A program made the translations under genes and the position numbers. The notes below the pieces were generated by a model. That model made no database searches. It was not told where the DNA came from and saw only the letters and a program-made list of their open reading frames with translations. 33,620 bases of DNA from Methanobrevibacter sp. (lineage in GTDB: Archaea > Methanobacteriota > Methanobacteria > Methanobacteriales > Methanobacteriaceae), in the NCBI GenBank assembly GCA_017434555.1, contig JAFRFB010000037.1:1-33620 (forward strand). Direction: 5' to 3'. Each line of letters opens with the position of its first letter. Within the stretch, counting starts at the first letter, position 1. Shown here piece by piece: positions 16,607 through 23,601 of this stretch.

Positions 16607-16661
16607 TTTATATAATATTAAGAATAAATATCTGTGTGTAAATTATATATAATTTAGGTGA
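16607..16661 (+). promoter_or_regulatory. Promoter and ribosome binding site of the 16670 gene
   Basis: TTTATATAAT (16607-16616), preceded by an A-rich element, predicts a start near 16637. GGTGA at 16657-16661 is 8 nt before ATG 16670, which decides that start over the upstream in-frame GTG at 16658 that lies within the SD itself. Confidence 0.55.
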
Positions 16662-16669
16662 TTTTTCTC

Positions 16670-17671
16670 ATGAAGTTTAATTCTCATGTTATATTTCTCA
16701 TAGCAATCGTTGGAATAATCACTGCGGGTGTTGTAGGTGCTACGATTTTAAACAACGGTTCTATGAAACAAGTAGACTTCGATGGTATTAAAGTTAATGT
16801 ACCTGCCGATACGGATTTTATAAAAACACAGGACGGTTATGCTGACACTAAATATGGCATTGCTATCAAAACTTTTCAAAACAATCAGTCTATGGTCAAT
16901 TATTTAAAAGGAATCACTGGAGTCAAGGTTGTTGCCCTTAAGAATCAGCCGCCTCAATCTTTGGCATTTGTACAGGGAGATAATACTAATATTTTAGTTA
17001 CAAATGGGGGTCAGGGTATTTCTATCGGGGCTAAAGATCAAGGTTTAGTCGCTGACATGTCAAATAGTGTTGTTTTCTCAAATCACCAAAAAAGTGCAAA
17101 ACCTAAAGTTAATGTACCGGTTATTGCTCAGCCTTCTCGTATGGAGATGGATGATGATTATTATTTAATAATGGGTATTTTAGCTCAAGTAAATACTTTA
17201 GAATTAAATGTAGCTAATTTCCAAACTAATATTACTCCTATGATTGAAGAATATAATGTCAATATTGACAACGGAACTATTAATCAATATACTGCTAATG
17301 AATTTATACCTTCTACATCTCAGGATGGAGGGAATACATCACTTTTCGATAATCCTCAAGCAAATAATGTTGTAAGTTCATTAAGTTCTGATTCTTCTAA
17401 TGGCGGTGCTGGAGGAAATTCCGCTTCATCAGGCAGTGCTCCTGTTAATTCAGTTTCACCTACTTCAGGAGATAGTGGTGGTCAAACACAAAACTTGACT
17501 AAAGAACAATTAAAAATTGAGATTGAAAAAGAACTTCCTTCCGGATATTCTGTTTCCGGTATTGATGATGAGGATGGTTATTATATAGTTTCAATTAAAG
17601 ATACACATGGTAAAATCAATAAATATATATACGATTATGAAGGCAATCTAGTTGAAAATAAAGATAATTAA
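16670..17671 (+). CDS. Membrane-anchored extracellular protein, unknown function
   Basis: This 333-residue protein has one N-terminal hydrophobic segment (about 7-28), either a signal peptide or an anchor, then an outside domain (DFDGIKVNVPADTDF and following), a Ser/Gly/Asn-rich linker (about 215-262), and a compact C-terminal domain (about 266-333) with a GYSVSGIDDEDGYYIVSIKD strand pattern that faintly recalls PepSY-like folds. I do not recognise the family with confidence. The next gene's ATG follows the stop codon directly, so it is cotranslated with the zinc-ribbon/pseudomurein-binding protein. That neighbour suggests a role at the cell wall. The start was chosen by the GGTGA site 8 nt upstream. 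Confidence 0.7.
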   Translation: MKFNSHVIFLIAIVGIITAGVVGATILNNGSMKQVDFDGIKVNVPADTDFIKTQDGYADTKYGIAIKTFQNNQSMVNYLKGITGVKVVALKNQPPQSLAFVQGDNTNILVTNGGQGISIGAKDQGLVADMSNSVVFSNHQKSAKPKVNVPVIAQPSRMEMDDDYYLIMGILAQVNTLELNVANFQTNITPMIEEYNVNIDNGTINQYTANEFIPSTSQDGGNTSLFDNPQANNVVSSLSSDSSNGGAGGNSASSGSAPVNSVSPTSGDSGGQTQNLTKEQLKIEIEKELPSGYSVSGIDDEDGYYIVSIKDTHGKINKYIYDYEGNLVENKDN

Positions 17672-17683
17672 ATGGGGGATTTC

Positions 17684-18412
17684 ATGTTTTGTCCTAAGTG
17701 TGGAAAAGAGATAAATGACGGTTCAAAATTCTGTAAACATTGTGGAAATAAAATAAAGCCAAAAGCTCCTGAACAAGCTGCTCAAACTAATACTCCTACT
17801 CAAACATCAAGTAATGATGATAGGAATAAAAAGATTATTATTGGAGTTTTAGTTGCGGCAATTGTAATTTTAGCTATTGTTTTTGTTGCTTTGGGAACAG
17901 GCGTATTTGATAATCATTCACAGCCGGCTAATGCAGGTAATCAAGTACAACAATCAAGTTCGAGTTCAAGTTCAAAAGCTGTTTCACTAAATAGTTTCCC
18001 TGTTAGTGAAGCTCCTGCATTAGCTCAGGCTATTAAAAGTTCTGGAGGAAACTTCCCTGTTCAATTCCAGTCACTTTCATTATCAAAGGCCCAATGTTTG
18101 TATATTTTAAGTAAATCTATTAGTCAGATTGGTGGCGGGCATCCTGATGCGACAATATCTGTAGGAGATCCTTCATATGCTCCTAATCCTAGTGGAAGTG
18201 ACAGTTCTCAGACAATTGCACGTCAAAATTATGTAGATATGTCAAACAGATTCTCATCATGGATTGAAAGTAATGGTTTTGTTCCAAATTATGTTGGAAT
18301 TTATACAAGCGGTGTTTCTGATATTTCTCCATCAAGAATGTTGGATATTTGTGTAAGTATCTTAATAGATTATGGAAACACCCACAATCTACCGGCATCT
18401 GTAAATGTTTAA
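17684..18412 (+). CDS. Zinc-ribbon / TM / pseudomurein-binding-repeat protein
   Basis: This 242-residue protein has an N-terminal zinc ribbon (Cys 3/6/17/20), a polar linker, one TM helix (about 51-71), a Ser-rich stretch (90-98) and two pseudomurein-binding-like repeats (about 105-160 and 182-242). The second is the clearer: FVPNYVGIYTSGV, then SRMLDICVSILI and NTHNLPASVNV, matching the P-yV...l...i...N..lP..v.v pattern. The topology puts zinc ribbon inside and wall-binding repeats outside. Start 17684 is preferred because GGGGGA lies just before it; the ATG at 17672 sits on that SD and would add four residues. It follows the 16670 gene directly and ends in a strong terminator. Role unknown; it may tether or sense the wall. 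Confidence 0.78.
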   Translation: MFCPKCGKEINDGSKFCKHCGNKIKPKAPEQAAQTNTPTQTSSNDDRNKKIIIGVLVAAIVILAIVFVALGTGVFDNHSQPANAGNQVQQSSSSSSSKAVSLNSFPVSEAPALAQAIKSSGGNFPVQFQSLSLSKAQCLYILSKSISQIGGGHPDATISVGDPSYAPNPSGSDSSQTIARQNYVDMSNRFSSWIESNGFVPNYVGIYTSGVSDISPSRMLDICVSILIDYGNTHNLPASVNV

Positions 18413-22417: not shown

Positions 22418-23326
22418 ATGGATAGTTTATTATCTATTTGTGATATTAAAGAGGATGTTTTAAATATTATTGATTTGGTTTGTGATATAAAAGCAGGTAA
22501 AAAGGAAGAAAAACCGCTTGAAGGTAAAACCTTAGCGATGATTTTTCAAAAGTCTTCAACCAGAACCAGAGTATCATTTGACGTTGGAATGTATCAGTTA
22601 GGTGGAAGAGCAATATTTTTATCATCCAATGATTTACAGATGGGTAGGGGAGAACCCATTTCAGATACTGCCCGTGTTTTAAGTCGTTTCGTTGATGGAA
22701 TAATGATTAGGGCCATAGAACATGATGATGTTATAGAATTAGCAAAATATTCTGATGTGCCTGTTATAAGCGGATTAACCAATCTTGAGCATCCTTGTCA
22801 AGTGTTAGCTGATGTATTAACTATTAAAGAACACTTCGGGTCCTTTGAAAATAAAAAAATATGTTTCGCCGGTGACGGAAACAATGTATGTAATTCCCTT
22901 TTATTAATTGCTCCTCTTTTAGGTATGGATATGTCTGTAGCATGTCCTAAAGGTTATGAACCTAATGAAGACATCCTCAAAATCGCTCAGGAATATGCAA
23001 AAGAAAACAATACAGAAATTGTTATTTCAGATAATCTTAATGTTGCCTTAGATAATGTTGATGTTGTCTATACAGATGTTTGGGTAAGTATGGGTGATGA
23101 AGCTGAAAAAGCACAAAGAGAAATAGATTTGGCACCTTTCCAGGTTAATCAGGAATTGATGAATCTTGCTAATGATGGAGCTATATTCATGCACTGTTTA
23201 CCTGCAGTTAGAGGTCAGGAAGTTTCAGCTGAAGTAATTGACGGACCACAATCTGTAATTTATGATCAAGCGGAAAACAGGCTTCATGCACAAAAAGCTG
23301 TTTTATATTATTATTTAAAGGATTAA
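22418..23326 (+). CDS. argF: Ornithine carbamoyltransferase
   Basis: This cytosolic enzyme makes citrulline from ornithine and carbamoyl phosphate in arginine synthesis. The 302 residues carry the carbamoyl-phosphate loop SSTRTR (46-51), HPCQ (125-128), the ornithine loop SMG (224-226) and catalytic HCLP (259-262). SMG rather than other variants supports ornithine, not acetylornithine, as substrate. It has its own promoter. Its stop codon overlaps by a few bases the stop of the convergent zinc-ribbon gene. Confidence 0.97.
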   Translation: MDSLLSICDIKEDVLNIIDLVCDIKAGKKEEKPLEGKTLAMIFQKSSTRTRVSFDVGMYQLGGRAIFLSSNDLQMGRGEPISDTARVLSRFVDGIMIRAIEHDDVIELAKYSDVPVISGLTNLEHPCQVLADVLTIKEHFGSFENKKICFAGDGNNVCNSLLLIAPLLGMDMSVACPKGYEPNEDILKIAQEYAKENNTEIVISDNLNVALDNVDVVYTDVWVSMGDEAEKAQREIDLAPFQVNQELMNLANDGAIFMHCLPAVRGQEVSAEVIDGPQSVIYDQAENRLHAQKAVLYYYLKD

Positions 23327-23601
23327 TGTCCGAAAATTGCGAATATTATAAATAAAAATACTAAACAGATACAGCAAGCCCACAATTTGCTGTCATCATC
23401 TTTTTTTGTATTTGTTGTTGATGAATTTCTATTGACAGTAGTTCTTCTAATAGGACCAGTATTATCTTCAACTGTAACTTTTTTAGCAGTTGTTTTAGTT
23501 TTTTCAGGTTCAGGTTCTTCATACACTAAGTTAACACCGCATTTTCTACAGAATTTACTTCCTTGGGGGTTTTCTTCACCACATTCCGGACAAATTATCA
23601 T
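23323..23601 (-). CDS. Small zinc-ribbon protein with C-terminal TM anchor
   Basis: The 92-residue protein has one zinc ribbon (Cys 4/7/18/21), a polar Thr/Lys/Asn linker and a C-terminal hydrophobic helix (about 72-90) that would tail-anchor it with the ribbon in the cytoplasm. It starts within a 4-nt overlap of the DUF2085 gene's stop, so the pair is translationally coupled. It also overlaps the end of convergent argF by a few bases. The function is unknown. It is the third zinc-ribbon membrane protein in the window. Confidence 0.72.
   Translation of the reverse strand: MIICPECGEENPQGSKFCRKCGVNLVYEEPEPEKTKTTAKKVTVEDNTGPIRRTTVNRNSSTTNTKKDDDSKLWACCICLVFLFIIFAIFGH

Follow-up and report, generated by a model that had tools for sequence, protein, structure and literature searches.

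The well-studied enzymes that cut pseudomurein, PeiW and PeiP, are of viral or proviral origin, and to our knowledge the remodelling of this wall polymer during the growth of methanogens is largely unknown. TcaA of Staphylococcus aureus is a wall-related protein with a single membrane span, a zinc finger inside and a large outer part (PMC10328498). In MTH719, the pseudomurein-binding (PMB) domain occupies residues 432-574 and has three motifs along with Trp 447 and 507, and its wall binding has been shown experimentally; the constructs with two motifs bound bacterial spheroplasts and not methanogen pseudomurein, whereas those with three motifs bound both (PMC3124540). The adhesin-like proteins of Methanobrevibacter and Methanosphaera have a membrane anchor with pseudomurein binding repeats (PMBRs) on the outside (PMC11532034), and an exported pseudomurein-specific Zn peptidase (OG0000169) was reported in a pangenome study (PMC11915815).

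Here we analyzed two tandem open reading frames, P1 and P2, which lie between aspS and hisD (gene names taken from the sequences) in the window, that is, the whole stretch of 33,620 nucleotides of Methanobrevibacter sp. DNA under study. On balance, we consider it somewhat probable that P2 is a wall-anchoring tether from the membrane to the pseudomurein, which was ancestrally paired with a pseudomurein-trimming enzyme. The coordinates of the features are collected in the table.

Table. Features of the P1-P2 region, in positions of the window
Feature	Coordinates	Strand	Basis or remark
Divergent multi-zinc-ribbon membrane protein, tracks with P1	15813..16517	-	
P1 TATA-like box and ribosome-binding site AGGTGA	about 16608-16616 (box); 16656-16661 (site)	+	consensus only
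P1, membrane-anchored or secreted protein, adjoins P2 in few species only	16670..17671	+	
P1 N-terminal outer domain, without known family	16757..17098	+	
P1 Ser/Gly/Asn-rich linker	17282..17473	+	
P1 C-terminal PepSY-like domain	17474..17668	+	PepSY in homologues
P2, zinc ribbon - transmembrane helix - PMB domain protein, 242 aa	17684..18412	+	
P2 cytoplasmic zinc ribbon, Cys 3, 6, 17, 20	17687..17752	+	Zn_Ribbon_1, invariant Cys
P2 transmembrane helix, aa 45-72	17816..17899	+	hydropathy, AlphaFold model helix 45-72
P2 outer PMB domain, aa 100-242	17981..18409	+	model, structure match, MTH719 alignment
P2 motif 2, sole motif matched by Pfam PMBR	18203..18301	+	27.1 bits, cut-off 24.9

Both reading frames are real and lie where a preliminary description of this DNA had placed them, and its view of P2 as a single-pass protein, with the zinc ribbon inside and the PMB domain outside, is borne out by the profiles and by the predicted topology. 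The start of P2 at 17684 (MFCPKCG) is likelier than the one at 17672 because most of the close homologues start there. The Pfam model Zn_Ribbon_1 matched P2 with 34.9 bits against a cut-off of 25, and the four cysteines of the ribbon are invariant across 24 homologues. P2 has one hydrophobic segment (about aa 45-72), which is flanked by basic residues on the N side, and a linker joins this helix to the outer domain; the predicted topology has the ribbon inside, one span and most of the protein outside.

The preliminary description had proposed a profile search for pseudomurein-binding domains, and in this search PMBR (Pfam PF09373) passed its curated cut-off on P2 (27.1 bits against 24.9, E 4e-6). 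A chance match was ruled out, as 24 of the 24 P2 homologues match PMBR at E <= 0.01. At the level of the phylum, the repeat was found in 79 of 80 genomes (Methanobacteriales and one sister genome) and in 0 of 14 control genomes. The claim of two such repeats fared less well, since only one of them is matched in the window protein. Searched in isolation in the window protein and four homologues, the first half of the outer domain gave no PMBR match at E <= 10 in Pfam, and a profile-profile comparison of the two halves found no similarity (probability 0.2%). Because that comparison gave nothing, the reading of two repeats rests on the structure model and on MTH719. The AlphaFold model of P2 (17 sequences, mean pLDDT 74.9) has an outer domain mostly above pLDDT 90, which is built of two confident strand-helix-strand-helix halves. 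The two best matches of this domain among the solved structures are chains of 8z4f (PeiP, PMBR region), with E-values of 0.019 and 0.033, neither of them below 0.001, and probabilities of 0.96 and 1.00; chain B was superposed over 64 columns at 2.1 A (probability 1.00, E 0.033).

A Methanothermobacter-like genome (locus L148) encodes a protein of 574 residues in which Trp occupies positions 447 and 507, just as in MTH719, and the outer domain of P2 aligns end to end with the MTH719-like PMB domain (432-574), with motifs 1-3 in order. Motif 1 is decayed in P2, motif 2 is strong and motif 3 is C-terminal, and a profile match to the MTH719-type domain (52.6 bits) spans everything past motif 1; only motif 2 matches Pfam PMBR in the window protein, though the domain is colinear with all three motifs. 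This alignment matters because MTH719 needs three motifs to bind methanogen pseudomurein. A single PMB domain whose first motif has decayed describes the outer domain better than two repeats do; P2 thus appears to be of full length for a PMB binding domain, with a weak first motif and with putative wall binding.

Judged from the sequences, the ribbon-membrane-PMB layout is one that recurs across Methanobacteriales. About 19 of 67 genomes of the genus encode a P2 relative that combines ribbon, helix and PMB domain, as do other Methanobacteriaceae, termite and free-living ones among them, and full-length P2 is missing from most of the genomes of the genus. The organisms of the named loci L062-L079 are Methanobrevibacter or Methanobacteriaceae, either free-living or from rumen, gut or termite; the organism names used for the genomes with G numbers are inferred. 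The same layout is present in two Methanothermus-like genomes (L080, L081); the version of genus g9 (L088, L089) has a second ribbon and a long linker rich in Asn/Thr, and in Methanothermobacter-like genomes (L084, L085) a protein with helix and PMB domain but without ribbon adjoins a separate ribbon-helix protein. The older location of P2 within the genus precedes the RNase P genes (L022, L025); at that place the window genome has only a sister ribbon protein (L127), and P2 seems to have moved from there to the hisD-aspS site in this mainly rumen clade. The sister protein (L127:1492-2094) and its relatives (L022:877-1491 and L026:2804-3367) are ribbon-helix proteins with a common outer domain, which ends in a motif such as FTIDYYETVSWSVEVYKYQ, and they lie ahead of RNase P/proteasome genes or adjoin P2 relatives. 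A second small zinc-ribbon membrane protein is encoded in the window at 23323-23601 (minus strand) and is kept near the same genes in L062, L064, L066 and L067.

In 16 genomes of deeper relatives, the P2 relative is followed directly downstream, on the same strand, by a gene for a membrane-anchored protein of about 240 aa, which is called M14-like here. Nine of these genomes are Methanobacteriaceae (G101, G061, G133, G136, G104, G106, G015, G105 and G103) and seven are Methanothermobacter-like. If a genome of roughly 2,000 genes holds 1-8 of the M14-like type, chance alone is estimated to give well below one such neighbour in 16. The family is present in 149 of the 151 Methanobacteriales genomes searched. 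It belongs to no Pfam or NCBIfam family, sequence profiles gave only weak matches to AstE_AspA_cat (E 0.049 and 0.2), and the structure was predicted (6 sequences, pLDDT 79) because a search of the family profile against PDB sequences gave no match. By Foldseek, the predicted fold has a probability of 1.00 to M14 entries (2qvp with E 1.4e-6, MpaA 4axv with 9.4e-6 and Csd4 with 5e-5), at modest TM-scores of about 0.37-0.52. The residues H84, E87, R126, H153 and E217 are invariant in the set used for folding and are all kept in the wider set. The partner is thus predicted to have the fold of an M14 zinc carboxypeptidase, with a putative activity on wall peptides, and this family is a more novel lead than P2 itself.

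Loci of the family include L074:6686-7417, L095:6664-7392, L110:1429-2541 and L109:1602-2255, and in the Methanothermus-like L110 a single protein joins the M14-like domain to three PMBRs. Five M14-like genes are present in the window genome, all on contigs other than that of P2, and in one of its loci (L123) the domain is fused to Ig-like repeats; in the Methanothermus-like genomes also the P2 relative is unlinked to an M14-like gene. Another protein of the window genome (L131:1462-2490, contig C52) has a PMBR pair followed by a cysteine-peptidase-like region as in the viral pseudomurein endoisopeptidases, and phage-like genes lie near it. The contig JAKSUH010000022.1 of L071/L072 is as such an inverted repeat whose genes are mirrored around about 6.5 kb, which is probably an assembly artefact, and its M14-like gene is cut short there.

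P1 starts at ATG 16670, 8 nt after an AGGTGA, and has an N-terminal hydrophobic segment and no Cys. Its earlier portrait as a secreted or anchored protein with a Ser/Gly linker and a small C-terminal domain is seen in the sequence, the linker being rich in Asn as well. P1 has no family match in Pfam or NCBIfam; PepSY (PF03413) matched the C-terminal domain in 4 of 15 homologues (best E 2.5e-5) and not in the window protein itself. Searches with the N-terminal domain brought up no more than a few small proteins, membrane-bound or exported (L055, L056, L061), and those at L055:1498-1980 and L056:1498-1965 are small membrane proteins with this domain alone.

The preliminary description had joined P1 and P2 into a two-gene unit for sensing or tethering the wall, with a cytoplasmic output. 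The two genes are adjacent, on the same strand and about 10-93 nt apart, in only six genomes (G000, G039, G040, G057, G070 and G087), and within the genus 10 genomes have both, 9 have P2 only, 6 have P1 only and 42 have neither, which is above chance by a Fisher p of 0.001 that ignores kinship. Leaving remote partial matches aside, P1 is present in 16 of the genus's genomes and in a single genome from a sister genus. Against such a device, each gene often stands alone at the same hisD-aspS site in close relatives, P2 without P1 in G038, G051, G053, G062 and G072 and P1 without P2 in G069, G074, G086 and G088 (in G092 and G083, where P2 also appears to be missing, the contigs end early), and four genomes (G037, G042, G044 and G064) keep both genes apart. 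P1 is linked more firmly to the multi-ribbon gene than to P2, because, among the hisD-aspS loci with sufficient flanking sequence, that gene accompanies P1 at ten and is lacking at those with P2 only (L063, L066, L067, L069). Conservation of the pair had been suggested as a check, and the pair is largely not conserved; the word sensing is a guess because there is no output domain besides the ribbon. A joint device of P1 and P2 is therefore very unlikely, and P1 is best regarded as a surface protein in its own right, PepSY-like at its end, recently placed beside P2 and dispensable as its partner; the two may be co-transcribed or not. The protein of the multi-ribbon gene combines several zinc ribbons with a polytopic membrane part and accompanies P1 in relatives. 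PepSY domains are described as inhibitors or regulators of peptidases, and the PepSY-like end of P1 might restrain a wall peptidase, with P1, P2 and the M14-like enzyme acting together while unlinked. The PepSY matches among the P1 homologues and the five M14-like genes of the window genome are in its favour, but P1 is missing from every genome in which P2 and the M14-like gene are adjacent, and we regard this arrangement as highly doubtful.

The main rival to the tether is a generic surface anchor, in which P2 would be an interchangeable ribbon-helix surface protein whose ribbon is a folded inner cap that fixes the topology and whose PMB domain would do no more than keep the protein in position, with no enzyme partner and no signal. 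The ribbon may indeed be a generic inner cap, because ribbons on a single helix carry many different outer domains here, and the window genome holds several such proteins whose outer domains are unrelated. The NCBIfam TcaA model (NF053815) matches P2 over the ribbon and helix only (residues 6-74), with 35.9 bits against a cut-off of 550 that leaves P2 outside the family, and the absence of full-length P2 from most genomes of the genus also agrees with a generic anchor. This rival is nevertheless rather unlikely, since the M14-like pairing is seen in two or more of the order's families, which is more than drift would keep. The tether has points against it as well, namely the decayed motif 1, given that two-motif MTH719 did not bind methanogen pseudomurein, the window genome and the Methanothermus-like ones, in which no M14-like gene is linked to P2, and the modest TM-scores of the M14 matches, with a model built from 6 sequences.

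In the tether as we propose it, the outer PMB domain, homologous to known wall-binding domains, would grip the pseudomurein sacculus, the single helix would cross the cytoplasmic membrane and so link it to the sacculus, and the cytoplasmic zinc ribbon could serve as a docking knob for partner proteins. Gene order, the domain fusion and the predicted fold suggest that ancestral P2 was the wall-holding partner of the membrane-anchored M14-like zinc carboxypeptidase, which would probably trim the peptide stems of pseudomurein. In the lineage of the window, P2 would have left the site beside the RNase P genes for hisD-aspS, and the enzyme would act here in trans because its five genes lie on other contigs; joint action of the two in this genome is presumed. 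More broadly, and only tentatively, a conserved, membrane-spanning wall-remodelling module of Methanobacteriales can be envisaged, in which a PMB protein with a zinc ribbon or a membrane anchor positions a pseudomurein-trimming M14-like carboxypeptidase. If this is true, the M14-like family would be the archaeal counterpart of Csd4/MpaA-type enzymes, hitherto unnamed and nearly universal, and the window would carry the tether half in a lineage that unlinked the two. P2 and its old gene partner, the host-encoded M14-like enzyme, are thus candidates for the remodelling of pseudomurein and for wall-membrane linking in rumen and gut methanogens.

The preliminary description recognised no described system in this locus. 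That holds in part: in the collection of papers searched by full text, none linked pseudomurein to zinc ribbons, but the TcaA topology and membrane anchors with PMBRs are both known. TcaA is the closest described architecture to P2, with the same order of ribbon inside, one span and most of the protein outside, and differs in an outer domain that is unrelated to PMB. MTH719, which is Methanothermobacter S-layer-like, shares the C-terminal PMB domain that aligns with the outer domain of P2, but it has a signal peptide, a long outer body, an intact motif 1 and no zinc ribbon. PeiW and PeiP share the PMBRs, and 8z4f is the best structural match of the outer domain of P2, whereas P2 is without a catalytic domain. 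The adhesin-like proteins differ in their large Ig-like, beta-helix or transglutaminase parts, and no zinc ribbon has been reported in them. Csd4 and MpaA resemble the M14-like partner in the predicted fold and in the invariant HxxE...H...E residues; the partner differs from them in having about 8-12% identity to them, no family model and pseudomurein as its wall polymer.
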